This document shows positions 10,054-63,100 of a stretch of 64,000 nt of DNA, one piece after another. Every line of letters starts with the position of its first letter. The stretch's first letter is position 1. The position numbers and the translations under genes were made by a program. The notes below the pieces were generated by a model. That model ran no database searches. It saw only the letters and a program-made list of their open reading frames with translations, and was not told where the DNA came from. Source of the DNA: an uncultured Bacteroidota bacterium (lineage in GTDB: Bacteria; Bacteroidota; Bacteroidia; 2-12-FULL-35-15). The DNA lies in contig CAINDA010000052.1 of NCBI GenBank assembly GCA_903847205.1, forward strand, positions 1-64,000. The letters run 5' to 3'.

Positions 10054-11655
10054 TTAAACCTTGAGCTCTGGCGTGGAATGCCCAGGAGCTTCTTCATCGC
10101 CCACTTTCCCAAACAGAAAAAAACTGTTAAGGAAAGCATAGAAAGTAACTCCCGCCTGTGTTTCCAAAGTATCTTCAGTAAAAAAGGAAACAATTGCAAT
10201 AATAAAAAAAGTGATGTACAAAAAATTGAATCCTTTTTTGTCATTTAGAAAGGGATATACTAATGTTGTCAGAAACCATATCAAACCAATTATTCCAAAA
10301 GCCACAGTAATTGATAGATATTGATTATGTGACCGCAGCCTCCATTCCTGGCTCAAAGTAGAATTTTCTTTTACATACTCCTGCTCAAAAGCCATTGGGA
10401 CATCGCCGGTACCGACCCCAAAAAACAAATTACTTTTTATTATGTTCACTGCAGTTTTCCAATATTCAAAACGCTGTGTAAGTGAGTGTCCGCTGGCTTC
10501 GCCCGTTTTTTTGTACAAATCAATTTCCCATAAAGTTTCATATATTCTGCTTTTTAAGCTGCTTACGCTTTGGTAATTTACATTGGTAACACCCCGTTCA
10601 ATTGCGTTAACTTCCGATGCAGTTAATGAATTTACAGCATCGGCATCCTTTCGTGATCCTTTAGAGGCTAAAAAACGAATCAGTGTAAAATAAACATTAT
10701 TGCCATTCAAATCTTTACTGCCTATTTTAATTTTGCTGCGTTCATTCCATGATTCTTTCAACTCACTTATGCAGCAGTAAATCCAAACCAAGTGGCCATT
10801 TTCAGTAACCTTTGAACGGGTATCATTCTCGTATAAATTGCCATGCAAAGTATAATTATCTAATTTATTTAAATCAATAATATCCGTTTGTTTGTTTTCA
10901 TTGTTTATTGTATTAATAAAATATACCAGCAGTGCTGTTGAACTGCAAAGAACTATAAGTGTCCCAAATTTTAATAGTCTGCTTTTTGTTTTTATTATAG
11001 AATAAATAATTAACACGAACAATGCAATAGATAAGGCTGCCAAGCCAGTGAGCGACTCCATTACAATTAAAAAAAACACCAACCAAAGTATCATTGCTGC
11101 CCATATTGTTTTACTTAAAACAGTTCGAGATTTGAAAATAAAATACGCTGCAATAAAAACAGCAGTACAGATTAACAAAGCAAACCGAATATGTGAAATA
11201 AAAATAGAAATGTCGCGGATATCAACAACGGTGCGATGAACCACACCGATTAATATTAATGAACTAAAAAAAGTTGCAAGAATAACAGAGACAGCAAGCA
11301 GCATTAAAATTATATCAAATAATTTTTTCGAAAGCGGTTTAGATGTTGAGATAATCAGCGGTAATATAAACAAGGGAGCCTTAATGCGAATATCTTTAAA
11401 AGCATAGTTATAGTCTGAAGTATAAATGAGTCCAACAAAATGAAGCAGCAATAAGGAACTTAATATAAGTGCGGTTTTGTTTTTCCAAAAAGACGTAAAT
11501 TTATTTTTAAGATTCCCTTCTAATAACCAGTTACAGGCTAATATTATCTGCGACAGGCTCATCAAAAATTTTGAAAACGGCAACCCGGCAACTAAAACAA
11601 TTAATGCAAATATGTAAATATAATAATGATATTTTTCCGGGAACAGTGACTTCAT
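10054..11655 (-). CDS. O-antigen ligase/polymerase family membrane protein
   Basis: A 533-residue multi-pass protein with about 10-12 hydrophobic segments. A large hydrophilic loop (about 250-395) leads into the Wzy_C-type signature: RFEYWKTAVNIIKSNLFFGVGTGDV followed by SHNQYLSITVAFGIIG; this His-Asn pair belongs to the conserved ligase site of the WaaL group. Members transfer or polymerise undecaprenyl-linked glycans on the periplasmic side. WaaL and Wzy types cannot be told apart by sequence alone. It begins the block of glycan-related genes that runs to about 19.9 kb and is divergent from the next gene at 11814. Confidence 0.85.
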   Translation of the reverse strand: MKSLFPEKYHYYIYIFALIVLVAGLPFSKFLMSLSQIILACNWLLEGNLKNKFTSFWKNKTALILSSLLLLHFVGLIYTSDYNYAFKDIRIKAPLFILPLIISTSKPLSKKLFDIILMLLAVSVILATFFSSLILIGVVHRTVVDIRDISIFISHIRFALLICTAVFIAAYFIFKSRTVLSKTIWAAMILWLVFFLIVMESLTGLAALSIALFVLIIYSIIKTKSRLLKFGTLIVLCSSTALLVYFINTINNENKQTDIIDLNKLDNYTLHGNLYENDTRSKVTENGHLVWIYCCISELKESWNERSKIKIGSKDLNGNNVYFTLIRFLASKGSRKDADAVNSLTASEVNAIERGVTNVNYQSVSSLKSRIYETLWEIDLYKKTGEASGHSLTQRFEYWKTAVNIIKSNLFFGVGTGDVPMAFEQEYVKENSTLSQEWRLRSHNQYLSITVAFGIIGLIWFLTTLVYPFLNDKKGFNFLYITFFIIAIVSFFTEDTLETQAGVTFYAFLNSFFLFGKVGDEEAPGHSTPELKV

Positions 11656-13235: not shown

Positions 13236-14738
13236 ATGAAAAAATATTTTATTGTTTTTATTTTATTTTCCTTAAGCGCCTTCCTTTATATCCTGCTTCC
13301 ATTTAATTCAAAAGGGAACCCCGTTTCCATTGATAAAAGTAAATTCGTTTCAATTCAGGATAAAAAATTCAGTTTAAACGGCAGGTTGTTTTATCCGATT
13401 ACAATAAATTATATTGTAGAAATGCAGACTGATAAAAACACGCTATGGCCATGCCCTTACAGAGGATATAATGCTGACGGGAAGTTTCGGTTTACTACAA
13501 AAGATTCGTGCTTAATGCATCTGAAGGCCGATATGGATTTAATTAAAGAGATGGGCTTTAATTCTATCCGGTTAACCGGCATTGGCGAAGAAGCTATTGA
13601 TGACGCGTTAATAGGGAAACTGACTGTTAATGCTAAAATAGGCGAACAGCGGGATACCACAATTGAACTTTCGAATGATGAGAATTATAAAAAATATTTT
13701 GAAGCAATTGCGCAATTGCTTGATGTTGTTAATAAATCCGGCTTAAAAGCGGTTTTGTTAACCCGCATGTCTGCCGATGTTAAAAACACAGAAGGCAATT
13801 TAAAAAAACTGATGCAGTATTTTAGAAATGATACAACCATTATGGCCTTTGATTTATTTAATGAACCTTTATATTTTGATGTGCCCGAAAGGAACAAAAA
13901 AGTAGTTTATAAAAAAGTGAAAAGATGGGCTGCTATTGCGAAAAGAGCATCGCCCAATCACCTGACCACAATTGGATTAACGGGTATCCGTGAGGTGTTT
14001 GAGTGGGATCCGGCCATTCTTGATGTTGATTTTATTTCTATTCACCCTTATGAATATGAACCTGAGCAGGTAAGAAATGAGATGTATTGGTACGCGAATT
14101 ATATCAAAAAGCCATGGATAATAGGGGAAACAGCTATTTCCGCGGATAATGATTCTATAACTTATGACACACAGAGACAGTTTGCCCGTAAAACTTTACA
14201 GCAGGCATATAACTGTGGCGCGATAGGGTACTCCTGGTGGCAGTATAAGGATGTTGAATGGCACAGCTATCATGCAAATTTTATGGGTGTAGTCAATTGG
14301 AAGGGCGAAACAAAAACTATTAAAAACAATATCCCCGTTATAGGAACCTTTAAGCCCGTCGTTGAAGAATTTAAAAAATTTGACCCGGCTTCAAAAAAAG
14401 ACAGCTGCATCTGCCTTAGCAACTATTACAATTACTCACAGTTTAAAGACTGCAGAATTACTGGAGTGTTATTGGATGAAAACAATAATCCTATTCAGGG
14501 CGGCGTAATTTTAGCATGGAATGAATATTGGTCGCATTCATTTCACACTGTTACGAAACCTGATGGGAGCTTTGAACTGCTCGGCAATTTTCCTTTTTAT
14601 CATTGGATGGCATCCGCAAGTTCCTACACAATGATTCGAGCAGATGTTTTACCTGACACAGCAAAAAAACAGAAAGACGCTATACCTACCATGAACATTG
14701 GGAAATTAAAAATACATAAGCTCCCCTTTGGGGATTAA
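13236..14738 (+). CDS. GH5-like glycoside hydrolase with C-terminal regulatory-like domain
   Basis: A 500-residue exported protein. Residues 4-22 form an uncleaved anchor or signal peptide. Residues about 45-370 fit the cellulase (GH5/clan A) TIM barrel: FDLFNEPLYF holds the acid/base Glu210 after Asn209, and PWIIGETAIS holds the nucleophile Glu298; HPYEY and WWQYKD are also typical. Residues about 410-480 (ITGVLLDENNNPIQGGVI, KPDGSFEL) are a carboxypeptidase-regulatory-like beta-sandwich, common in Bacteroidota surface proteins. Its position among glycosyltransferase genes suggests that it trims or remodels the polysaccharide made by them, rather than digests food glycans. It ends only 10 bases from the convergent GT39 gene. 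Confidence 0.8.
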   Translation: MKKYFIVFILFSLSAFLYILLPFNSKGNPVSIDKSKFVSIQDKKFSLNGRLFYPITINYIVEMQTDKNTLWPCPYRGYNADGKFRFTTKDSCLMHLKADMDLIKEMGFNSIRLTGIGEEAIDDALIGKLTVNAKIGEQRDTTIELSNDENYKKYFEAIAQLLDVVNKSGLKAVLLTRMSADVKNTEGNLKKLMQYFRNDTTIMAFDLFNEPLYFDVPERNKKVVYKKVKRWAAIAKRASPNHLTTIGLTGIREVFEWDPAILDVDFISIHPYEYEPEQVRNEMYWYANYIKKPWIIGETAISADNDSITYDTQRQFARKTLQQAYNCGAIGYSWWQYKDVEWHSYHANFMGVVNWKGETKTIKNNIPVIGTFKPVVEEFKKFDPASKKDSCICLSNYYNYSQFKDCRITGVLLDENNNPIQGGVILAWNEYWSHSFHTVTKPDGSFELLGNFPFYHWMASASSYTMIRADVLPDTAKKQKDAIPTMNIGKLKIHKLPFGD

Positions 14739-14748
14739 ATTTCAAGAA

Positions 14749-16680
14749 TTACTTTTTGCCGCTGCTGTTAATTATTCTGAACTTTTCCTGAATACCAATC
14801 GAATCGCTGTTTGCCGAGAGGCGCAGAGATTTTTTATCTACACTCCAATATTTACCATTTACTGCTTTAAATGCAGCATAGCCGTTGTCAAGTTCAATCA
14901 TTGTAAACGTTTCCCACTCACTTGCAATCTTTCTGGACGCTGTGATCTGATTCTGCTGCCCAAGATCAGCACAAAAAAATAAACTGTCGCTGGAATAAAT
15001 TTTACATTGTATTTTTTCGAACAAAGTCAATCTGCCTGCATCGTCTCCATCCGCTGATACCATATGATTCGCAGATTGATCAGCGCAGACATATTTTCCG
15101 TTAAAAGCTTTTAGGAATATTGTTTTTTTAAGCCAATGGACCTCCGCAGATTCAGCCTTTTCAGGAATGGAGCTTTTAATAGTATATGTTTTCACATTGT
15201 AATATGTATTGGTTACTTCAAATGAGTAATGTTTTTCGATATATTGCTGTACATCGTATTGGCTTGCTATTACCAAATCGCCGGGAACCAAAAAGCGCTT
15301 GTCTTTAAAACCCACTTGCTGGTTCTTCTCATTTAAGAGACTAAGGTAAAATGAAAGATGCGCATTATGGCCGTCATAGCAGATGTTGTGCTGCTTAATT
15401 GAACGCTGAGAATTTACAGCCTCTTTCAAAAAATAAGAGATGTGAGTTTCGTTTATCTCACTTTCATTCTCTTTCGGAAAATATACTTTATCTATTATCT
15501 TTTCGTAAGGATGTAAAAAAACAATAACAAGAAAGACGAAAGGAATTATATAAAACCCGAATGCGCGGTTAACATAAGCAGCGTCTCTTAACAGCGAAAA
15601 AACCCAATAGACGGCGGTTCCGCAGATTATTGCAAAAAATGGGTATAAAGGCACATCATACCATTCGCATTTGGTTTTCGAAATTGAAATAATAAGCCAA
15701 TATAAAAAAACAGCTAAAAGGCTGAATATTGTTATCCGTTTAAATTTTTCATCTTTTATAACAAAGCCAACCAATAAACCGCAGGGTACAAGCAGATACC
15801 AATCAGCATATTTAAAATCAATCAGCTGATTGAAATAAAACATAAAAGGATATCCGTGACCTTCTAACTCATGCAAATACCGGCCCCCCAACTCATTTTC
15901 CCACACAGCTGCCAGGTAACCCGGGTTATAATGTTCCCTGATCAGGTAATAACCCATAACAATGCTTATGAAAATAAACAGATCGAAATAGAACCATTTA
16001 TTTTTTATGGTTTCCAAAAATTTCTTTCCAATCAAAACATAAATACCCAAAGCAGGAATAAAAATCAGTCCCTGAACGCTTTTTGTAAGTACTGATAATG
16101 TGAGGCCGATAAAAAATAAATGAAGATGTTTTTTTTCCCCCAGCTCTATGAATAGAAAAAAAGAAAGACAGTAAAGTGTTGTAAAAAAAGCCAGAGGTGC
16201 ATCTAGATCTCCCGTGCGCACCGCATGGTTATTGATGTAACCATAGGTGGTGACTAAAATTAAACTGGCAATTAAACCTAACCAATAGCTTTTAAGATAT
16301 TTAAGTGAAAATAACATCAGGCTTAGAGCTGTAAGAAAAGCGGCTAAAGCGGAAGGCAGTCTAACAGCCAATTCCCCCATTCCAAAAATTTTATAAAAAA
16401 GTGCCTGCAGCCAAATCACCAGCGGAGGTTTTGTTCCCCACATATCCGGCTGTCCGAGGTAATGAGGGATCAGGTAATTTTTATTTTGAAGCATCTCGCG
16501 GGCGCTGATTGCCAGCCTGGCCTCGTCCCAAACACGAAGCGGAAGATTTTCAAGGTGTAGAAAAATGGGGAAATAAACGAGTGTAAGAAAAAGAGCTGCT
16601 TTAAAAAACAGGCTCAATTTATTTTTAGGATTCATTTCTAATAAATATAATGACTTCTTTAAATGAATATTTCGGGACAC
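14749..16680 (-). CDS. GT39/ArnT-like glycosyltransferase fused to a fascin-like beta-trefoil
   Basis: A 643-residue protein. Residues about 20-420 form a GT-C enzyme with about 11-12 helices: LPLRVWDEARLAISAREML carries the catalytic Asp-Glu pair of the ArnT/PMT family just after the first helix, and GTKPPLVIWLQALFYKIFG is the second family motif. Such enzymes move sugars from polyprenyl-phosphate on the periplasmic face. Residues about 505-640 hold three repeats of some 40 residues (FLKAFNGKYVCAD, SSDSLFFCADLG, AAFKAVNGKYWSVD) that fit one complete fascin-like beta-trefoil, a fold that binds sugars or actin in other proteins. The trefoil would face the periplasm. A start at 16635 (MNPKNKLSLF) is an alternative. 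The fusion is unusual. Confidence 0.82.
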   Translation of the reverse strand: MSRNIHLKKSLYLLEMNPKNKLSLFFKAALFLTLVYFPIFLHLENLPLRVWDEARLAISAREMLQNKNYLIPHYLGQPDMWGTKPPLVIWLQALFYKIFGMGELAVRLPSALAAFLTALSLMLFSLKYLKSYWLGLIASLILVTTYGYINNHAVRTGDLDAPLAFFTTLYCLSFFLFIELGEKKHLHLFFIGLTLSVLTKSVQGLIFIPALGIYVLIGKKFLETIKNKWFYFDLFIFISIVMGYYLIREHYNPGYLAAVWENELGGRYLHELEGHGYPFMFYFNQLIDFKYADWYLLVPCGLLVGFVIKDEKFKRITIFSLLAVFLYWLIISISKTKCEWYDVPLYPFFAIICGTAVYWVFSLLRDAAYVNRAFGFYIIPFVFLVIVFLHPYEKIIDKVYFPKENESEINETHISYFLKEAVNSQRSIKQHNICYDGHNAHLSFYLSLLNEKNQQVGFKDKRFLVPGDLVIASQYDVQQYIEKHYSFEVTNTYYNVKTYTIKSSIPEKAESAEVHWLKKTIFLKAFNGKYVCADQSANHMVSADGDDAGRLTLFEKIQCKIYSSDSLFFCADLGQQNQITASRKIASEWETFTMIELDNGYAAFKAVNGKYWSVDKKSLRLSANSDSIGIQEKFRIINSSGKK

Positions 16681-16702: not shown

Positions 16703-18088
16703 TTATCTGTTACCCCTCCTGGCCTCATCGTAATCAGGGGAAATAACATATTTATCATAGTCTTTTATTTTTTCAAGTCTTCCAAACTGTTTAAAATAGA
16801 GCTCTTTCGACATTCCATCATAGTGTAATACCATGTTTTCGAATTGAAGTGTCTGAAAAAGGTTCAACCAGATAAAAAATAATGCCGCAGAGTAAAACAT
16901 TAAATTATACAGCAGTTTTTTTTCGGAAACATATTTTATGAATGATGCGAAAGGAATCGCCAGCAATGCATAACTCTCAACCATGCTCCGCTGCCCGAAC
17001 GAGCCGCCATACCACCAGCACCACCATGAAAAGATAATATATATATTAAGTATAAAAAATAAAATTATCGGCAATTGTGTTTTCTTCATAGTTCCTTTAA
17101 GTACAAACACGCCGGCTAACGCAAAGGCCATCATTGGTGTATATATCAGCCATCCCTTACGGAAGCCGAACAAACCCTGAATTATTTTCGGCGCATTAAA
17201 AAAGAAACGTTCATCGGGGTATGAATAGTAGAAAAAACTTCCGGAACTTATCTTCCAGTAAACCAGCTGCGGCACCCATACTAATATAAATGCAGCAACT
17301 ATTATTAAAAGTAAGACCGCCTTTTTTCTGAAAAACAATGTTCTTTCTTTAAAATCCGACAGGCTGCTTACTCCGTAAAATGCGAAGAAGAGCATTATTA
17401 TAATATTAGAAGAACGTACCAGTGAAATCAAACCGATTAATAAACCTATAATAATTGTGTTTTTTATTGTCTGGGATTCAAACCATTTGATTGTATAATA
17501 AATAAAAACAGAAAACAAACAAAATGAATAAACGTGTGACATTGGGGCTGACTGTGACGAGTAGGCAGTTAAATTTGTTCCTAACCCAATCAGTAAAATA
17601 GAAGACGCTATGTGGATATCTGAAAACTTATAATGAATTAGTATTTTTCTCAAAAAATCCAGCCCGACAAACAAATAAAACAGAGCACTTACTAAAAGTA
17701 AAATTTTATACGGCTCCGAAAATCCATTTTCCGGGTATTCCGACAGCATCGCAGCGGCATGTCCGACAAGGAAAAAAGGTGCATACAACACAGCCATGCC
17801 CATTGTTGTTTTAATTACTTTTTTCCCATCGGCAGTATAGTTTGGCCAAAACATAAAATAATTTTTTCCAATTCTGTAATCACTTTTCCACAAGTGAATG
17901 TCCTTATAAATAAAGGCTGCAGGCAGGTATGCATAATAGGAATGTATATCCCATTCAATTACGCGAGTTGGCTTTTCCCAATTTTTAAAACCCATATCAA
18001 TTACCAGACAGCAGGCAATTACAATTATAATTGCGATGGATGATAATTTAAGTTTTATTCTTTTTATGAAATTAATATTTGGGCTCAT
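16703..18088 (-). CDS. Multi-pass membrane protein, GT-C-like (paralogue of the next gene)
   Basis: A 461-residue integral membrane protein with about ten helices. The loop after the first helix, VIEWDIHSYYAYLPAAFIY, resembles SWDILGYYMCLPATFIH in the neighbouring protein, and an Asp in this position is typical of GT-C enzymes. Later segments also match (FRKGWLIYTPMMAFALAG against YRKGWFVYTPVMLFAVTG), so the two genes are tandem duplicates. I do not recognise a named family. An upstream in-frame ATG exists (18118), but the one at 18088 (MSPNINF) leaves only a 17-base overlap with the upstream gene, a usual sign of translational coupling, and is preferred. A role in glycan assembly is an inference from context. 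Confidence 0.65.
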   Translation of the reverse strand: MSPNINFIKRIKLKLSSIAIIIVIACCLVIDMGFKNWEKPTRVIEWDIHSYYAYLPAAFIYKDIHLWKSDYRIGKNYFMFWPNYTADGKKVIKTTMGMAVLYAPFFLVGHAAAMLSEYPENGFSEPYKILLLVSALFYLFVGLDFLRKILIHYKFSDIHIASSILLIGLGTNLTAYSSQSAPMSHVYSFCLFSVFIYYTIKWFESQTIKNTIIIGLLIGLISLVRSSNIIIMLFFAFYGVSSLSDFKERTLFFRKKAVLLLIIVAAFILVWVPQLVYWKISSGSFFYYSYPDERFFFNAPKIIQGLFGFRKGWLIYTPMMAFALAGVFVLKGTMKKTQLPIILFFILNIYIIFSWWCWWYGGSFGQRSMVESYALLAIPFASFIKYVSEKKLLYNLMFYSAALFFIWLNLFQTLQFENMVLHYDGMSKELYFKQFGRLEKIKDYDKYVISPDYDEARRGNR

Positions 18089-19898
18089 ATATTTCAATCT
18101 TAAAATTGTCAATATCAAAAGTGCTTTTCCCTCTTTTCCAGATGTAGCATTTCCAAGTGTCCTTTACATTGCGGACTTCCGGAGTTAAATATTCCAGTTC
18201 ATATTTATGCCACCGGCCGTTCGCCGAATCTGTTTTTATCTCTGGCGCAAAATATCCGTACGAGCCGCCCTTGTGCTCCATTGTCATTACCATACATGGC
18301 GGTGCTCCCTGAAAATCAATTGGGAAGCGAATATCCATACTCGCCTTTATCCAAACATGATCTTTCAGGGTCAGTTCTTTGAACAGATACTGGTTAGTGA
18401 TACAAAATTCCTCGTCAGGCAATGCCCGGTAAAAGGGATTTCGCGCTGTATCCGTTTGAACATTTTTATCTTTTGTAGTATCAAATGTATCTTGTTTTAA
18501 TAATGTAACTGAATATTTTGTTTTGTTTTCAAATTTTTGCTGCCCTGTAAAATCCCTGTTTACTGAAAGAAGGGCATGGTCGCTTTCACTTACCGATGTT
18601 TTTAAAAAAGCTGCCCAGTAATATTCTTTGGTAGTGCGGTAAGGATCAAGAATGTAATTTTTCAACTGCATCCATTGAAACTGGTTTAAAAAGATAAAAA
18701 ACATCACTGACAAAGTAAAAAGGCTTTTAATAAAAGTGCTTTGTTTTTGGACAAATAATAAAAAATAACCAAGACAGATGGCTAACAGCGGGTAGCTTGT
18801 AATAACCGGGCGGCAGGAAAAAGCGGCGCCGTAATACCAGTATGTCCAGCAGCAAATAATGTAAAACGATATTAAAAAATAAAATAAAACGGCATAAAAA
18901 ACCGGCTTGTTGTTTTTATAAAAAAAATAAAATCCGGTAACTGCAAATAACATAACCGGTGTATAAACAAACCAGCCTTTGCGGTAGCTGAATAAAACAT
19001 TAAGGATATGCGGTGAAAAAAAATCAAGCCCGACTCCAGGATTTTTATAACTGTCATAAATAAAATGACCTGTTTTTGCATGCCAGTATAACAGCTGCGG
19101 GAGCAATAGAAGAAAGCACGCCGCTCCTGTAAGGAACAGTGCCTTTTTATTGGAAAGCAGCAAAGAGATTTTTTGTTTGAAGCTGTCGAAAGAAAAAACA
19201 TTCCAGAACAATGGAAGAATGGCAATAAATATTTCGCTGGGTTTTATCAGTATCATCAGAGTTATGCTGATACCGATAGTAAACAGATATTTTGTTTTCT
19301 GATTTTGATGCCACTGAATGGTATTCCAAACAATGATGCCCACCAGCATAAACAGTATATTAACTGTTTCTAAATTTTTCAGCGTAAGATGATGGATATA
19401 ATTTGTTCCGAAAACAACAATGATCATCACTAACGCTGCGATGCCTTCAGAGAAAAAATGACGCAGAATTTTCCGTAAATAAATTAACCCGATAATGGTA
19501 TAGATAATGCCCCCGATTACCATTGCATACTGATAGGGCGGACTGAACCCATCCATTTCAAAGCCACCGATAGCTGCAAGACCATGACCAAGAAAGAAAA
19601 AAGGAAGAAAAAACAATCCCATCCCAAAAAGAAAAACATACATCGGCTCGCCTTTATCATTGCTCGAAACCTGGTAAAGTGTACCGCTCAGATCATTTTT
19701 TTTGTTAAGGTCTTTGAGCCATGTAATGTCATTGAGCATTGGCTGATGGTGAATAAATGTTGCCGGCAGGCACATATAATACCCTAAAATATCCCAGGAA
19801 ATTTCTTTTTTATCAACATTATTAATTCTGTAAATTGATATAAATAAACAAATAGCTATAAGAGCAATTAAAGAAAGTTTATTGAATAGTTTTCTCAT
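18072..19898 (-). CDS. Multi-pass membrane protein, GT-C-like, with extra C-terminal domain
   Basis: A 608-residue protein that shares its membrane half (residues 1 to about 425) with the gene downstream of it: same order of helices, the SWDILGYYMCLPATF loop, and YRKGWFVYTP. It differs by a soluble C-terminal part of about 150 residues (from about 450) that looks beta-rich (FKELTLKDHVWIKASMDIRF, GKSTFDIDNFKIEIYEP), similar in style to jelly-roll carbohydrate-binding domains, though I cannot assign it firmly. The gene overlaps the next one by 17 bases. The pair probably acts in the same pathway on different substrates or at different steps. Substrate and reaction are unknown. Confidence 0.65.
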   Translation of the reverse strand: MRKLFNKLSLIALIAICLFISIYRINNVDKKEISWDILGYYMCLPATFIHHQPMLNDITWLKDLNKKNDLSGTLYQVSSNDKGEPMYVFLFGMGLFFLPFFFLGHGLAAIGGFEMDGFSPPYQYAMVIGGIIYTIIGLIYLRKILRHFFSEGIAALVMIIVVFGTNYIHHLTLKNLETVNILFMLVGIIVWNTIQWHQNQKTKYLFTIGISITLMILIKPSEIFIAILPLFWNVFSFDSFKQKISLLLSNKKALFLTGAACFLLLLPQLLYWHAKTGHFIYDSYKNPGVGLDFFSPHILNVLFSYRKGWFVYTPVMLFAVTGFYFFYKNNKPVFYAVLFYFLISFYIICCWTYWYYGAAFSCRPVITSYPLLAICLGYFLLFVQKQSTFIKSLFTLSVMFFIFLNQFQWMQLKNYILDPYRTTKEYYWAAFLKTSVSESDHALLSVNRDFTGQQKFENKTKYSVTLLKQDTFDTTKDKNVQTDTARNPFYRALPDEEFCITNQYLFKELTLKDHVWIKASMDIRFPIDFQGAPPCMVMTMEHKGGSYGYFAPEIKTDSANGRWHKYELEYLTPEVRNVKDTWKCYIWKRGKSTFDIDNFKIEIYEPKY

Positions 19899-20002: not shown

Positions 20003-21811
20003 TTATTTTTGTGCGTTTAATTTCTTTTTCTTCCTTATAGAAGCCCTGATATCCTTTAACTGCCCTGTCGGGATAGCACTGATTAAATTAATAGTATAAT
20101 CTGTTTTAGGATGATTATAAATTTCATCGGCATCGCCTATCTCCTCAATTTTTCCTTTATTCATCACAATCATCCGGTCGCTCATAAATTTGACAACCGA
20201 CAAATCATGCGAAATAAAAATATATGTAAAATCGAATTCACGCTTTAACTCATTCAATAAGTTTAAGACTTGCGCCTGAACGGATACATCCAATGCAGAA
20301 ACAGGCTCATCGCAGATGATAAATTTAGGACGGAGCGCCAATGCGCGTGCTATGCAGATACGCTGGCGCTGCCCGCCTGAAAACTCATGCGGATACCGGT
20401 AAAAGTGAGACCCGCTCATATTTACCCGCTCTAAAAGTGCTGTTACATGCGCTTTACGTTCTTTATCGTTTTCTAAAATACCATGAACCTTCATTGGCTC
20501 CATAATAGCCTGCCCGATGGTAATGCGGGGGTTGAGCGAAGAATAAGGATCCTGAAAAATAATTTGAATATCACGGCGCTGCTCCCGCATTTCTTTTTCT
20601 GAGAGGTCGGTAATATTTTTACCGTTAAAAATAACTGTGCCTTCGGTAGGTTCTATCAAACGTAAAATACTTCTGCCCAGCGTTGTTTTACCGCAGCCCG
20701 ATTCCCCAACCAAACCAAGTGTTTCGCCGGGATACACATCAAAACTTACGTCATCAACAGCACAGACAAAGTCTTTTACTTTTCCGAATATTCCTTTTTT
20801 TACACCGAAATATGTTTTTAAATTTTTTACCTGCAGGATGGGTTCTTTGTCATACAATTTTTTATGATTCTCCTCCCGCTCTTCCGCGGTAACAATAAGT
20901 TTCTCAGTAACTTCATCAATGGATTGGTTGGTTTCAATCATCTTGCCGTTCACATCCGTTTTCATGAAATGTGCAACAGTCGGCAGCCAGCGCAGGCGCT
21001 TGTCTAATAATGGGCGGCATGCCAAAAGGCCTTTGGTATAAGGATGCTGCGGTTTCGAAAAGATATCAAGCACACTGCCCTGTTCCACAATTTTCCCTTT
21101 GTACATTACCACAACCCTGTCCGCAAGCTCTGCAATAACACCCAAATCATGAGTAATAAAAATAATCCCCATATCGTGTTCACGCTGCAACTTAAGCATT
21201 AAATCCAGAATCGCTGCCTGAACAGTAACATCAAGAGCAGTAGTGGGTTCATCTGCAATTAAAATTTCAGGCTTGCCGCTCATCGCCATTGCAATCATAA
21301 CCCTCTGCTTCTGCCCTCCCGAAATCTGGTGGGGAAAACTGTCGAAAATGCCTTCAGGCCTTGGCAGCTGTACTTCTTTGAATAACTTTATTGTGATTTC
21401 TTTCGCTTCTTTTTTCGAAACTTTTTGATGAAGCAGAACAGCTTCCATCACTTGATCGCCGCAGGTATAAACAGGATTCAGAGAAGTCATTGGCTCCTGA
21501 AAAATCATGGCAATCTCATTGCCGCGCAATGCTCGCATTTCGTTTTCAGAAATTTTCAGGATATCCGAATCCCCATGAGTTTTGGAATGGTAAATAATAC
21601 TGCCGGCAGTAATTTTTCCCGGAGGGTTCGGAATCAAACGCATTATAGACAATGCCGTAACGGATTTTCCTGACCCCGATTCGCCCACTATACCAATAGT
21701 TTCACCCCTCTTAAGGGTAAACGATATATCATTAACGGCTTTAACCGTTTCTTCTTCATTGTGAAATTCTGTTACTAAATTTTTTATTTCCAGTAATATT
21801 TCTTTTGCCAT
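20003..21811 (-). CDS. Fused double ABC ATPase for oligopeptide-type transport
   Basis: A 602-residue cytoplasmic protein made of two complete nucleotide-binding domains, as in GsiA or YejF. First half: Walker A GESGSGKS, signature ISGGQKQR, Walker B LIADEPTTALDV. Second half: Walker A GESGCGKT, signature FSGGQRQR, Walker B ICDEPVSALDV. Each half ends with the oligopeptide-family tail (HPYTKGLLACRP; HPKTDYTINLI). It powers an importer of peptides or similar solutes. No permease or binding-protein gene lies beside it, so the partners are elsewhere in the genome. Because it is an orphan ATPase, the substrate cannot be told. Confidence 0.92.
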   Translation of the reverse strand: MAKEILLEIKNLVTEFHNEEETVKAVNDISFTLKRGETIGIVGESGSGKSVTALSIMRLIPNPPGKITAGSIIYHSKTHGDSDILKISENEMRALRGNEIAMIFQEPMTSLNPVYTCGDQVMEAVLLHQKVSKKEAKEITIKLFKEVQLPRPEGIFDSFPHQISGGQKQRVMIAMAMSGKPEILIADEPTTALDVTVQAAILDLMLKLQREHDMGIIFITHDLGVIAELADRVVVMYKGKIVEQGSVLDIFSKPQHPYTKGLLACRPLLDKRLRWLPTVAHFMKTDVNGKMIETNQSIDEVTEKLIVTAEEREENHKKLYDKEPILQVKNLKTYFGVKKGIFGKVKDFVCAVDDVSFDVYPGETLGLVGESGCGKTTLGRSILRLIEPTEGTVIFNGKNITDLSEKEMREQRRDIQIIFQDPYSSLNPRITIGQAIMEPMKVHGILENDKERKAHVTALLERVNMSGSHFYRYPHEFSGGQRQRICIARALALRPKFIICDEPVSALDVSVQAQVLNLLNELKREFDFTYIFISHDLSVVKFMSDRMIVMNKGKIEEIGDADEIYNHPKTDYTINLISAIPTGQLKDIRASIRKKKKLNAQK

Positions 21812-53740: not shown

Positions 53741-54110
53741 GGATTTTTTAAGTTCTTTGCTTCATGGGAATGGAAAACCTACAAGGCCTGCAAAATTGAA
53801 ATTATGAATGCTTTTTACAGCCCCTCTGTTTGTTTATGTTGAAAAAAAGCGCTATTCTTGCTTACTGATTAAACTTGATTTTAATAAGGATTTTTTGTTT
53901 TTTCATATTTGTCAAGTAATTCCAAACAATTCGATTTCCCATTTATTAAAAGGAGTAAAGCATATTTGATTAAAGAAGGAGAGAGAATTTTTTAAAGAAT
54001 AGGTGTTTAAGTTTTCCTCTTTTCAGTTTTTATGGCTTTTTTATTACCCATTTCTATTCCCGTTCAGATTTTTTTTAATAGATGATTATACATTCTTATA
54101 TTATTCGCAG
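53741..54110 (+). other. Leader region of the giant adhesin gene
   Basis: AT-rich, with purine-rich AAGGAGAGAG near 53977 that resembles a ribosome site but lies too far from both the GTG at 54003 (about 17 bases) and the ATG at 54111. Two near-matches to TAnnTTTG (CATATTTG) occur near 53905 and 53960. No gene seen. Confidence 0.35.
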
Positions 54111-57100
54111 ATGTCAAAACTATTACCAAGGAAATTGCAGACTGGAGCATTAAAAAAAGAGCGGATTTCGCTTGGATTAAAAGCGTCGCTTTTGCTATTA
54201 ATTCACTTGGTATTATTTTCATTTTCTGCACAGTCGCAAAGCGGAAGTGTTACTATTTCGCAGATTGTTCCAACCACTGTAAGTGTATGTGACAGCGCAC
54301 AGTTTATGATCACTGTAAAAAATAACACAAGCGGCGTTCTGAGCGGGCTTTTATTAAATGCTGCTATGCCGGGCGGAGTGAATTATATTCCTGGGTCGGT
54401 GCATAGCTTACCTGCAGGAGTTTCCCAATCAAATATTATCAATCTGCAAAATCCGGTTTTTTTAATTCCTAGTATACCTGCGTTCAATTCTATTTCTGTT
54501 CTCTTTTATGCAAAAGTTGATTGCAGCATAATTGCATATCAGCAGCAGGGTAACCCCATTATTAATACAGCTACCATTACATATACTAATTCAACCACCG
54601 ATCAAAATATTTCTACAACATACAATGTAAACGCCCCGTCTTTAGTAATTACATCCTTTACTAATCAGGCTCATACAGGCACAGTCGGCAGCACTTTTAC
54701 AAGGAGTATAACTATTACCAACAGCGGTACCGGTTCTTTAGCTTCTTTCACATTTACTGACGCGCATGGCGGACAGATAAATATTATAAGCGTGACGCCG
54801 GGAATACTCAGCGGCACAGCAACCAACGACACTGTTGCTGTTTCAGGAATTGATTTCGCTGCGGTCGGGAACCATAATACGCTGTTTGATCATGGAGAAA
54901 GCATCACAATAATAGAGCATGTCAGAATAGCGGCCTGCATCCAGCCTGGGATTCCATCAAATATAAAAGTATTTTGGGGCTGCGGGAACCAAGCCGCCTG
55001 CCAAACTGCATCAACTACAGCAAACGTTACAGAAATACCTGTTGGCACTCCTGATTTGGTAATTACACCAGCGGAATCATTTGAAACTTGTTTAAACCCG
55101 ACAATTGCCCGTAAACAGTCTTTACAGATTGTGAATATTGGTGCAGGGTCCGCTAATCATATTTCAATGGATATATACCAAGGAGCTTTTATGGTGCCAA
55201 ATAGCAGTTATCAAACCAGAATAGACGAAACAAGTTTTACTTTTCAATTTGGCATAAATGGGAGCCCGGCAGCGATCACTGCAGACAGTTCCAAAAATAA
55301 TTCACCGTTTTTATGTCTCGGTTCAAATCCAAAATACCGTGTTTATCTCAGAATTCCTGCGGTTATTAATCCTATAACGGATACTGTTTATCTGAAATGG
55401 AATTCGTATGCCTGCTGTCAGGCTAACAGCTGCGACACATCTTTTCACACAGTAGCTGCTCCATGGGAATTTAAAGGGAAATATACCGATGCATGCGACA
55501 GTACTGTTACTTATGACATATTTCCAACCAGCGGCGGATCAATTTACGGACGTTATTTTAATGCTTCAATGGCACCGGAGAATATGCCGACGGATTTATC
55601 GAACGGCGTTACCACTTTTGAACATTCTGTAACTAATTGGCAGAATGACGTTAATTCTGCTCCCGGCGCCTATTACCAGGTTGACATCACAATTCCAAGG
55701 TGTTTTACACTTGCTTCCAATGCACATCCAATTCGTTTCATAAATAATTCCGACGGAAGTTTTTGGATGCCTACTTCTGCAATCACAATTTCCGGGAATA
55801 TCGCTACAGCAGTTTTTGCAGTTCCCGATCCATTCGGAATAAACTCGCTCAGTAACGCTTCGTTGCTTTTTGATTTAAATGCGGACTGCTCTATGTGCCA
55901 TGACTCCGGGTGGGCCCGAAGCATTTCAGTGGATGTAAGATACAACCCAAACCCTTCCTGCTCTAGCGCATGCGCAATAGAATTGTATTGCAATACAAGT
56001 TCTGTAAACCTGCATTGCGGAACCTGCGGTGCCGGGATCGGCGGAATTTCCTTTTTAAGTTATAAAATGGAAAGAACCAGTTACGGCCAGCCAGATAATA
56101 ACAATGACGGTCTGCCTGAAGCAGGAGTTGTAAATCTAAATGTTATTAAAACCCACAGGGCTATGTTTAATGATACGCTTACAGGCTATTTCAAAGGGGT
56201 TGTACTTAGTGCCCCAGGACACCTCACTTTCCCAAATGTTTATGCCTCAACTTCTATAAATAATCTGGGTACATACCTGTCTTTTATTGATGCATCTGTT
56301 ACTATCTATGACGCAAGTACTTCAACAGTTTACAGCTGTAATAATGTACCAGCACTGTCTGCAGCCCCAAGCGGAAGCAGTTACAATTCGATTTTTGATA
56401 TCAGCCCTGCCTACTTAAATGCCAATGGCTGCACAATACCAGCGGGTTTTGTTTTTGAAAATGGCGACTCGGTATTTCTGAATCATCGATACAGAGTAAT
56501 TGCTAATACGGGAGGTCCCGTGGTGTCAAGCAATTCAACAACTGATTTTTATGCGAGTGATATTCCTAATCCTCCGCCCAATGCGGTTCCTGCCCATAAA
56601 TTTTCCTGTGATAATTATTCGGGGAATTATCTTTCTCTTTACGGGTACTACTTTACAAGTGATACAGTTGGATTCTATACCGTAAAGTCGTGCAGTACAG
56701 CAACCGTGAGAAATACGGATTATCTGAGTATTGGGCCTTGCTGCCAAAATTACGGGCACAACAAATTCCCTTTTGAGTATCGTCCCTGGGGAAGAATTGA
56801 CACAATAAAAGTGATAAAACCTGCGGGGTATGATTATGTTTCAGCTGTTATAGACGGGTTAGGGCAAGTTTCACAGGCAATTGCGCCGGCAAATCCTAAT
56901 TCTAACACATTACTATTTTATGTAGGTGCTTTATACACCAGTAATACCTGGCCCAACTATAGCTTTGACGGCTATGCCAACACGATAAATGTTACTCTAG
57001 TGCCGAATTGCATGGCCCCTAACAGCACTATAGAGCAGGTTGCTTATGATGATGTGCATAAAAAATTCGCTTATCTTAATGGCGGCGATACCGCTATCAG

Positions 57101-60100
57101 CCTTATTTCCGACCACATTGTAAGCAGTACTCCTCAACTTATAATGCAGTCAGCCCTGCAGACTGTTGACGGCATTAACACCATTGAATCCTGGAATTTA
57201 AAACTGTGTAATATATCTAACAACTCAAATGCATTTAATACATGGTTAGGCTTTGTTTCTCCTTCAGGAAATTTAAGTGTTGTAGATGTAACGAATTTAG
57301 CCACTTCTGCTGTAATAGTGCCTGTCGGAGGAATTTACAGGCTTGGGACCGAAGCCTTCGATTCATGCGCCACTTACCATATCAGATTTAAATATCACTC
57401 TTGTGCGTTAGACACCATGATTGTGAATGCAGGATGGAATTGCAACGGTTATCCCGATTCACTTGCATCATATCACTGCACTCCAAAAAAATACGATCTT
57501 TATGTCAACCCTAAACCATCTGCGCTTCAGATGCAGGTTGCAGGTCCGGCGCGGGATACAATTGCTCTTTGCGATACAGCCAGCTATGAAATAATTCTTA
57601 ACAGCGTACAGCTGGCATCTTGTTACAATATTAATCTTTCGGCTTTGCTGCCTTCAGGTATGACAATTGCTCCAGGGTCATCTGAATTCCTCTATCCTGT
57701 TAACGGCGCTTGGGCCCACTTAGGAAACCCGACAGCCAATGTTTGGGATTTGTCGGCACTTATTCCACAGATAGATACCTTCGGATTAAAAGGAGTTAAT
57801 TTTCCAAATTTCAGTCAGTTGAAAATCCGCTTCAAAATCCGGCCCAATTGTAATTTTATATGCGGAAGCACAGTACCATTTTCTGCGGCTTCAACAAATA
57901 TCTGCGGACAGAACCATCCTGCGCAGTTTGCTACCTCAGCTCCGCTTTACATAAGAGGAGTGGAGCATCTGAATATTACTTCCATGAGAGTTGTTATGGA
58001 TTCAATTCATCAATGCGGGATGCCCTCATTGGTAAGAGTTTCAATAATTAATGTCGGACCTAATGCCACTACGGGCAATGAACACTTTTATTTTCCCGCC
58101 TCCAACGACAGCGTTGCAGCAGGGTCATTCACAGGGATACATAATACACCTCTATCTGCATATTTTAATAACACCTTGAACGGGCAGCATTATTTCGACT
58201 GGACGCTTCCGGCGGGTGTGCTGCCACTAGATAGCGTTGTTTTTACCTTCAATATAATTGTTAATCCTGACTCTATAAATTGTTCTAATATTATATTTCC
58301 GGTAAAAACAATAGGTTCGTTTAATGCCACATGTATTGCTGATAACAGCGTCTGCACTATAAGATCAATAACAAGTGCAGCGTCTCTCAGTGTTCCCGTG
58401 AACCACCCCTGCCCTGTAGTTATTGTTTTGACTGCAGTGGCGGCCTCACACACATTGTGTTCCGGAGACAGCACCTTAATTACATTAACAAGTAACGTTC
58501 CGGGTACAATTTTTTCATGGACAGTAAACCAAACAGGAGTAACGGGAGGGTCTTCAGGTACAAGTGCTTCTTTAATTCAAACTTTGAGAACAATTGGAAA
58601 TATACCAGGCACTGCGGTTTATACAATTACGCCGTCTTCTAACGGATGCCATGGAGCCCCTGTTATCATTACAATTACTGTAAACCCTGCTGACAGCAGT
58701 GCCACTTTTACTTATACTTCCGGCACTTATTGTACATCGGGCCCCATTCAAACGCCGACGATTACTGGTCTGCCGGGAGGCGTTTTTACAGCTGCCCCAG
58801 GCGGTTTATCAATTAATCCGTCAACCGGCGTAATTAATTTATCAACCAGCGCATTAGGTATTTATACTGTTACTTATACAACACCTGGTATTTGTCCCAA
58901 AACAAGTTCTCTAAGTATAACAATCACCAATGTCACGCCATCTGCGGTTTTTAGCTATCCGGCTTCTCCATATTGTCCCAATGGAAATAATCCTTTTCCT
59001 GTTTTTGGTTCGGGAGCAAGTGCAGGTACTTTTACTGTTACTCCCGCCGGTTTAGTTTTTGTAAATGCAAACACAGGCCAAATTGATTTAACTTTAAGTG
59101 CAATTGGTATCTACACTGTTGTTAACACGATTCCGGCAAGCGGTTCTTGCCTCGCTGCAACAGCATCAACAACAGTAACTATTGCAAGAGAAAACGCATC
59201 ATTTGTTTACACCTCTGCAACCTACTGTCAATCGGGCGCCAACCCAACACCAACTGTAACGGGACTTCCAGGAGGAACTTTTTCTGCCTCCCCCGCCGGT
59301 TTAGTAATCAATCCCTCAACAGGTACAATTAATCTGGCAGCAAGTATCTTAGGAACATATACACTAAGCTATACCACAAACGGAAGCTGCCCTAACACAA
59401 GTTCAATTGTAATGACGATTGATAATACTACTCCTTCTGCTTCTTTCAGCTATTCCGCTCTTTCATTTTGCCCAAATGGAATTAACCCTTCACCAATCTT
59501 TGTTTCTGGCGCAAGTGCAGGGATATTTTCGGCCGCACCTGCCGGCTTAATATTTGTTCATGTAAACACAGGTCAGATAGATTTAACAGCAAGTACACCG
59601 GGTACCTATACTATTACCAATAATATTCCTGTGAGCGGTTCCTGCCAGGCTGTGAGCGCCACAGCAATAGTTACAATTACACATTTGGATAATGCTTCTT
59701 TTGTATATTCTTCAGGAACGTATTGTACATCAGGGGCTAATCCAACACCAACTATTACCGGTTTGACGGGAGGAATTTTTTCAGCAGTGCCGGCCGGATT
59801 GGTTATTAATAGCTCAACTGGTACAATTAACCTGGCAGCAAGTTCTTTAGGAACTTATACCCTTAGTTATACTACAAATGGGAACTGTGCAAATACCAGC
59901 TCTATAACAATGACGATTGGTAATACAACACCCTCTGCGGCCTTTAGTTATTCAGCTGTTTCCTTCTGCCAAACTGGAAATAACCCGCTTCCAATTTATG
60001 CCTCAGGCGCGAGTGCGGGTGCGTTTACAGCAACTCCAGCAGGTTTGGTTTTTGTTAATGCGGCCACAGGGGAAATAAATCTGGCTTTGAGTGCATTGGG

Positions 60101-63100
60101 AACTTATTCTGTTGTTAACACAATTCCGGCAAGCGGAACCTGCCTAGCGGCAACAGCATCAACAACAGTTACGATAACACTGGATGATGCTTCCTTCATG
60201 TACACATCTGCAACATATTGCATTTCCGGCGCAAACCCGACACCAATAATTACCGGGCTGCCTGGCGGTATTTTTTCGGCCCTTCCTGCAGGTTTAGTTA
60301 TCAATCCCTCAACAGGAGTAATTAATCTTGCAGCAAGTTCTTTAGGCAGCTATACACTCAGTTATACAACAAATGGAAACTGTCCGAACACAAGTTCTAT
60401 AACTATGACCATTGATAATACAACACCGGGTGCTGCTTTCCATTATTTAAGTGCCTCCTACTGCCCTAATGGAATTGACCCGCTTCCGATTTTTACTTCA
60501 GGTTCGAGTGCAGGAATATTTACAGCAAGCCCTGCAGGTTTGGTTTTTGTTCATGTGAATACCGGCCAGATTGATTTAAGTGCAAGCGCTCCGGGTACCT
60601 ATACAGTTACAAATACAATTCCTGTGAGCGGCTCATGTCTTTCAGCAATTGCGACAGCTACGGTTGTTATATCAGTACTGGATAATGCTTCTTTTACTTA
60701 TTCATCAGGAACATACTGTCAGTCGGGCACTAATCAAACACCAATTATTACAGGCGTTTCGGGCGGTACGTTTTCCTCGGTTCCTTCCGGTTTGTCAATC
60801 AATTCTTCAACAGGTGTGATAACTTTATTTACAAGCGCACTTGGCGTTTATACCGTAAATTATACAACAAGCGGTGCCTGCTCCAATACAAGTTCAATTA
60901 CAATCAATATAGGCAATACCGCACCTCCAGCTGATTTTAGTTATTCCGGTTCTTCTTTCTGCCAATCTGGAAATAATCCTTTCCCCGTTTTTGCCCCAGG
61001 TGCAAGTGCTGGGACTTTTTCAGCTGTTCCGGCGGGTTTAGTATTTGTGAATTTAAATACCGGCGAGATCAATTTAGCTTTAAGTGCGACGGGTACTTAT
61101 ACAGTAACCAATACTATTCCGACAAGCGGAACTTGTCTTGCTGTAAGCGCAGTAACAACAATTACAATTAACGCTGATGATGCCTCTTTTACCTACAATT
61201 CAGGAACTTATTGCGTCTCGGGACAAAATCCTTCACCTGTAATTACAGGGCTGCCTGGCGGCATCTTTTCTGCCGCTCCTGCAGGTTTGGCAATTAATAC
61301 ATCCACAGGTTTGATTAATCTGGCTGGAAGTACTTTAGGCAGCTACACCATTACTTATTCAACAAACGGTGCCTGCCCTAACTCCAGCCATATTACTATG
61401 ACAATAGGTAATACTACGCCTTCAGCCGTTTTCAGCTATTCAAGTTCTTCCTTCTGCCAAAATGGATTGGACCCTTTGCCGGTTGCCGGTTCAAATTTCG
61501 GTTCGTTTTCGGCTGCCCCTGCGGGATTAATTTTCGTGAATCTGAATACCGGTCAAATTAATTTAGCATTAAGCATACCTGGTACTTATACCGTTACCAA
61601 TACTATTCCTGCAAGCGGTACCTGCCTGGCGGCAAGCGCATCATTCACTGTTGTCATATTGCCGGGCGATAATGCGTCTTTTGTATATTCTTCAGCTACC
61701 TATTGTCAATCCGGCACTAATCCGGTACCAACAATTACAGGATTATCAGGAGGAGTTTTTTCAGCATCTCCGGCCGGATTATCTGTTGATCCTGCGACCG
61801 GCGCAATAAATTTAGGGGCGAGTTTATTGAATATTTATACACTCAGCTATACCACTAATGGCACTTGTCCGAACACAAGTTCTATAACGATGACAATTAA
61901 TAACACGAATCCTTCTGCATTCTTCAGTTATCCGGGTTCCCCTTTCTGTCAATTTGGAAATAATCCTTTTCCGGTTTATACGGGAGGCTCCAGCGCAGGT
62001 ATATATACCGCAACACCAGCAGGTTTGGTTTTTGTACATGTTAATACCGGCCAGATTAATTTGGGGTTAAGCGCTCCCGGCACTTACACTGTAACTAATA
62101 CTATTCCGGTAAGCGGAACATGCCTTTCGGCAATTGCAACAACGGTTATTACAATAAGCCCTGCGCCTATTGCAAGTGCGGCATCCGGTTCTCAAAATAT
62201 TTGTTCCGGCAGCGGCACAGCCATTATACTGACAAGCACAGCTGCCGGAACAATTTATACCTGGACAGTAAGTGAAACCGGAGTGACAGGAGGCACAGGC
62301 AGTACAGGAACAAATATTGCTCAGCTATTAACTTTAACAGGGCCGAATCAAGGTTCTGCAGTTTATTCAATAGTTCCTACAGCCGGTGGCTGCATAGGTT
62401 TACCGACACTGCTGCCAATTACAATTTATCCTCTGCCTGTTTCAGATACTTCTGCTTTGTTGATTAAGTCTGCAAATTGTAATGATACAACAGGTTTTAT
62501 AAAAGGTATTGTAATGACTTCCGGTAACAGTCCGTTCCACTATGTGTGGAAAGATTCGGCTGGTATTACTGTAGGCGACAGTCTAAACTTAATTAATGCC
62601 CAGCCCGGCAGATATACACTGACTATTACAGATGCCAGTGGCTGTTCCACCACGGCCGGAACTTATACCATTACCTCTACAGCAATTATTACTGCGGCGT
62701 TTACTGTTAATCCAACAACCGGGGAAACCCCTTTGACCGTTAATTTTACAAATAACAGTACAAATGCTTCTCATTATTTGTGGCAGTTTGGAACCGGCGA
62801 CACTTCAAATGTGGTAAACCCCGCCTATGTTTATATTCCGCTTGGAAATTTTACAGTGTGTCTGCGGGCTGATAATGGCGGGCTATGCGCCGATACAGCA
62901 TGCTCTACAATAGATATTTATATTAACTCCATGTTTCTTATACCAAATATATTTTCACCAAACGGAGATGGCGTGAATGATGTGTTTACAATTCAATCGA
63001 AAGGTTTGAGAACACTAGATGCTGAAATATACAACCGCTGGGGGGAAAAACTATACGAGTGGCACACCACCAGCGGCGGATGGGACGGGTATTCCGCCAG

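Follow-up and report, generated by a model that had tools for sequence, protein, structure and literature searches.

A predicted CBM92-like beta-trefoil on an ArnT-like GT-C glycosyltransferase of an uncultured Bacteroidota bacterium, and its recurrence on other glycan-building enzymes of related bacteria

Introduction

What does a membrane-bound glycosyltransferase do with a fascin-like domain at its C-terminus, and is the combination peculiar to one gene? The question is raised by an open reading frame in the window, that is, the whole 64,000-nt stretch of DNA analysed here (contig CAINDA010000052.1 of assembly GCA_903847205.1, positions 1–64,000). The sequence-only reading described its product as a GT39-type glycosyltransferase fused to a complete fascin-like beta-trefoil, and knew of no described fusion of this kind. 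The fusion of a GT-C-type glycosyltransferase with one complete fascin-like trefoil is real, with Pfam families above their curated cut-offs and all three repeats matched. A GT-C/fascin-type fusion was not found described in open-access PMC papers, in agreement with that reading as far as this literature goes, although absence there is not proof. The order of the domains has precedents, as GT-C enzymes with a CBM tail (EmbC) or with a trefoil (PMT-MIR) are already known. What is surprising is how many biosynthetic enzymes carry the trefoil, and that neighbouring genes apparently exchange it.

Gene structure and the enzyme part

The open reading frame (14749–16680, minus strand) has no internal stops. 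Translation probably begins downstream of the GTG at 16680. The ATG at 16635 (MNPK...) is the start common to the orthologues L039 and L040, and because of this conservation the gene is taken as 14749–16635 and the protein as probably 628 amino acids long, rather than the 643 counted from the GTG; residues are numbered throughout with the Met at 16635 as 1. The GT-C membrane core comprises residues 1–394 (15454–16635). It is followed by a soluble stretch, residues 395–503 (15127–15453), for which Pfam gave no family and which is placed as a core-to-trefoil linker by position only, and then by the CBM92/fascin-like trefoil, residues 504–628 (14752–15126), all on the minus strand.

The core matches the Pfam family PMT_2 with 63.8 bits against a cut-off of 26.1. 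About eight TM segments are predicted in it by hydropathy, and an acidic motif, WDEARLA, follows the first. Several TM segments with an acidic motif placed in this way, together with the PMT_2 match, assign the predicted protein to the GT-C superfamily. ArnT (5EZM, E 3e-6) is the sole PDB match of the core, and the ArnT model is the sole NCBIfam match (residues 14–394, E 1e-19). By these matches the enzyme classifies as an ArnT-like GT-C. It is not ArnT itself, since its 70 bits are far under the equivalog cut-off of 567; ArnT (GT83) has a similar membrane core, to which a trefoil is added in the window protein.

We think it very improbable that the gene encodes a genuine protein O-mannosyltransferase of GT39, with the trefoil representing a MIR domain that has been displaced. 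The PMT family (PF02366) is also above its Pfam cut-off and the MIR domain of PMT is likewise a trefoil; nevertheless, PMT scores below PMT_2, no MIR family is among the Pfam matches of the protein up to E 0.1, and the trefoil is C-terminal rather than in a luminal loop. With ArnT as the nearest solved and curated relative, membership of GT39 was rejected and the label "GT39-type" given up. PMT and POMT enzymes still offer a parallel, being GT-C proteins with a trefoil (luminal in PMT) that binds mannose, the product sugar, and affects processivity (PMC7759382). They are eukaryotic and combine a PMT core with the MIR family, whereas the window protein combines an ArnT-like core with a C-terminal trefoil.

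Enzymes of the ArnT-like GT-C kind work on the periplasmic side of the membrane, with polyprenyl-phosphate-linked sugars as donors, and the C-terminus of ArnT is periplasmic. Periplasmic glycosylation of this class has been described (PMC11127046). A periplasmic location of the trefoil, proposed in the sequence-only reading from the topology of GT-C enzymes, gains support from relatives of the domain. Its occurrence on lipoproteins with a lipobox and on secreted hydrolases indicates that the family lies outside the cytoplasm. In addition, two GT-C enzymes (L134:8065–10167 and L138:8420–10495) have an N-terminal trefoil, preceded by a signal or lipobox sequence. Two TM helices separate this trefoil from the DE motif, an order that fits a trefoil predicted on the periplasmic side.

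The C-terminal trefoil and its sugar sites

The C-terminal region scores above the curated Pfam cut-offs of DUF7910 (41.4 against 35), FRG1 (31.7 against 27) and Fascin (26.9 against 23.1). The three repeat units named in the sequence-only reading begin at residues 512, 552 and 593, and are thus spaced by 40 and 41 residues. None of 2000 shuffles reached the summed similarity of the units, the alpha-gamma and alpha-beta likenesses being clear and the beta-gamma one not. A profile of 35 homologues searched against the PDB found the CBM92 structures 7zoh (1e-27) and 7zoi (7e-25), human fascin (1e-23) and then FRG1, and spanned all three repeats. With the single sequence, 7zoh was matched at E 3.6e-7 and fascin at about an equal level. 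The claim that three similar units of about 40 residues make up one trefoil is borne out by spacing, shuffles and profile, and the region is predicted to fold as a three-subdomain beta-trefoil with homology to 7zoh/7zoi. The assignment rests on homology to solved structures, because the AlphaFold2 models of the trefoil and of the whole protein, built on a three-sequence alignment (the window protein and two orthologues), had a pLDDT of 33 and were unusable.

Fascin carries several tandem trefoils and bundles actin, whereas the window protein has a single trefoil only. CBM92, the former "bacterial fascin-like domain", has three sugar sites, each formed by WExF and a nearby Arg, although the Trp is sometimes missing at one or more of them, and its partners are glycoside hydrolases (GH) or polysaccharide lyases (PL) in almost every case (PMC11039641). 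The three-repeat trefoil, the WExF-plus-Arg site and the occurrence in Bacteroidota are common to the window protein and to CpCBM92A/B (7zoh/7zoi), the best profile match. Identity to CpCBM92A is 30% over 116 positions, against at least 37% stated for the published CBM92 set, and the domain is for this reason called CBM92-like and not filed as a member. It further differs in having one WExF site instead of three and in being appended to a biosynthetic GT-C, not to a hydrolase or lyase.

The one full site is the beta site, formed by Arg568 and WETF at residues 574–577 (14905–14934, minus strand), both invariant among the window orthologues. The gamma site is degenerate, with the Trp lost and the Glu and Phe kept (QEKF, residues 616–619, 14779–14790, minus strand), and the Trp is lost as well at the alpha site (LTLFE, residues 536–540, 15016–15030, minus strand). 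The trefoil is under purifying selection, with a dN/dS of 0.04–0.17 among four orthologues, synonymous sites being near saturation in wider pairs.

Distribution of the trefoil

Within the same genus, the single trefoil sequence found a match in 16 of 36 genomes, and the profile in 18 of the 29 more complete ones. Matches occurred in 44 genomes from a spread of 396 Bacteroidia (20 of 199 genera) and in 6 of 296 genomes of a second sample across the phylum. The loci analysed contain 53 rows of GT-C fusions, which count one gene twice (L039/L056) and bear ten family codes (f1, f4, f9, f10, f16, f26, f28, f32, f53 and f69). Their cores form at least nine subfamilies by BLAST clustering and come from ten Bacteroidia families; the trefoil is nearly always C-terminal. 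The particular fusion seen in the window occurs only in close orthologues, 74–76% identical over the enzyme part, and a matching trefoil is absent from ArnT-like relatives at 33–37% identity (L035, L036, L038 and L041). The possibility that most homologues already carry the domain was accordingly rejected.

Other proteins encoded in clusters similar to those of the GT-C enzymes carry the same module. AlgX-like acetyltransferases with a C-terminal trefoil adjoin an MBOAT gene in three loci (L115:3480–5021, L042:14456–16108 and L043:13262–14911, the last two assigned by gene order and resemblance). Small lipobox lipoproteins consist of little beyond the trefoil (L044:13312–13800, L045:3415–3900, L046:4609–5624, L119:8417–8917, L149:3972–4454 and L150:2196–2684). 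The same trefoil family is also present on secreted enzymes of other Bacteroidia, from GH16, GH30 and GH5, where mostly all three WExF sites are retained. Most of the lipoproteins lack the alpha-site WExF and keep beta and gamma, while the GT-C copies mostly lack gamma. Among GT-C trefoils 5 of 52 retain the gamma-site Trp, compared with 22 of 27 among the remaining trefoils (Fisher 2e-10, a value that ignores relatedness). Its loss was considered as a GT-C-specific trait and set aside, with only two phylogenetically independent pairs on supported branches, and the pattern is kept as a description. In one GT-C clade of the same genus the Trp is lost at all three sites and the trefoil is kept (L048, L049, L051, L053, L055, L147, L152, L153 and L154).

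Probable recombination between neighbouring genes

Immediately upstream of the fusion lies another GT-C gene (16703–18118, minus strand), assigned to family c1 by alignment and tree, which has no trefoil. Within c1 the trefoil is present on 24 of 40 cores, and the tree requires five changes. The window c1 protein ends ...YDEARRGNR exactly where its relatives in L042, L043, L115, L116 and L120 run on into the trefoil. The trefoil of the fusion, in turn, has its closest counterparts in L115 and L116, on c1 and AlgX-like proteins (49–52% identity). The pattern in the window fits either movement of the module from one neighbouring gene to the other, in either direction, or loss in one gene and capture from another. 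Candidate routes in the window lineage are a handover by c1 to its ArnT-like neighbour, capture of the trefoil of an AlgX-like gene, and loss and gain as independent events.

Copying is also indicated in a related locus. The neighbouring and unrelated c1 and AlgX-like genes of L043 share 121 nt at 94% identity, including 79 identical nt, inside the trefoil only; the 79-nt identity indicates recent copying within the locus. More generally, trefoils of different enzyme families are 34.2% identical within a locus and 26.7% between loci (label-shuffle p 0.004), a likeness driven by pairs in L115, L043, L118 and L042. The tree of 79 trefoils has few well-supported forks.

A module that comes and goes in this way might do no more than cap the C-terminus or help the protein to fold, spread by recombination and without a specific ligand. 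Its variable presence among the c1 relatives and the clean absence from the window c1 gene agree with this explanation, which we nonetheless regard as unlikely given the strong purifying selection on the trefoil and the conservation of specific site residues.

Proposed function

We consider it probable that the gene encodes a periplasm-facing ArnT-like GT-C whose CBM92-like trefoil tethers the acceptor or product glycan, and that the module is common to several enzymes of such loci and recombines among them. The donor would presumably be a polyprenyl-phosphate sugar. The trefoil would bind the glycan through the surviving beta Trp/Glu/Arg site and so keep the growing surface glycan close to the active site of the GT-C. 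The presence of one module on several locus enzymes suggests a common glycan, on which the other GT-C enzymes, the AlgX-like acetyltransferases and the lipoproteins might all act, with the module passing between neighbouring genes by recombination. That the trefoil holds the acceptor glycan had been proposed in the sequence-only reading; the glycan-binding part of the proposal is strengthened by CBM92 being the closest solved homologue and by the one intact site. The purifying selection on the trefoil, its occurrence on secreted hydrolases, its recurrence on many enzymes and the likeness of copies within a locus also count in favour of this reading. The missing Trp at two of the three sites of the window protein and the identity of only 30% to CpCBM92A speak against it. 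Because one GT-C clade (nine rows) retains the trefoil without any site Trp, sugar binding may not be universal.

Alternatively, the trefoil could be a protein-protein docking module that binds no sugar and assembles the enzymes and lipoproteins of the locus in a periplasmic complex, in the manner of fascin and actin. Many proteins of one locus bear the same module, the trefoils are alike within a locus, the single sequence matches fascin almost as well as CBM92, and the clade just named has kept a trefoil with no Trp site at all; for that clade especially a docking role is possible. We regard docking as rather unlikely, since the beta site is kept with its Arg in the window orthologues, the module nearest by profile binds sugar, and relatives of the trefoil are found on glycoside hydrolases. 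A stronger version of the tethering proposal is put forward tentatively. In it the trefoil would act as an interchangeable address tag for one glycan throughout a locus, placed on GT-C transferases, AlgX-type acetyltransferases and lipoproteins of unrelated families and kept alike by recombination, so that all enzymes present in the locus would work on a common glycan. In the window, such a tag is missing from one GT-C gene (c1) and present on the next.

Glycan tethering by an appended domain is not without parallel. The C-terminal CBM of EmbC has been proposed to hold the glycan near the active site (PMC3044687), and for the PMT-MIR trefoil such a role has been shown in part (PMC7759382). The EmbC/AftD arabinosyltransferases, of which EmbC provides the precedent for the domain order, have another module, belong to another phylum and act on arabinan. 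Polypeptide GalNAc-transferases (in part PMC7759382) are likewise transferases with a lectin trefoil, which aids action on glycosylated acceptors, but they are Golgi enzymes with a GT-A fold and a ricin-type lectin, unlike the window protein.

CBM92 has so far been described almost entirely as a helper in polysaccharide degradation. Its relatives on periplasmic glycan-building enzymes, acetyltransferases and lipoproteins suggest a general way for Bacteroidota to keep many enzymes on one glycan. The likeness of copies within a locus provides a directly testable handle on the modification pattern, and the module offers a starting point for annotating gene clusters whose GT-C enzymes are still unassigned.

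Surroundings of the gene

The locus is bounded by a peptide-type ABC ATPase gene and by cyclase/HemN-like genes, with several GT-C genes inside. In the window the ATPase gene, of the dipeptide/oligopeptide type (20003–21811, minus strand), forms one border, as it does in many genomes examined. Convergent with the fusion is a GH5-like gene with a single TM segment (13236–14738, plus strand; Pfam Cellulase), which is conserved next to GT-C genes with a trefoil in about ten loci, and an O-antigen-ligase-like (Wzy_C) gene lies farther on in the same locus (10054–11655, minus strand). L056 has the same gene order with a single exception, a membrane-protein gene lying between the GH5-like gene and the Wzy_C gene, which is a different one there. 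Such a difference is in keeping with a surface-glycan locus of variable content. GT2 genes are present in related loci and could load polyprenyl phosphate.

A further related GT-C gene (18072–19898, minus strand) encodes a different C-terminal extension, at residues ~414–608, that matches no Pfam family and is possibly another glycan-binding module. The extension is conserved in a clade comprising L039, L044, L045, L117 and L135. Elsewhere in the window, positions 54003–63200 hold an open reading frame of about 3066 amino acids with several predicted TM segments.
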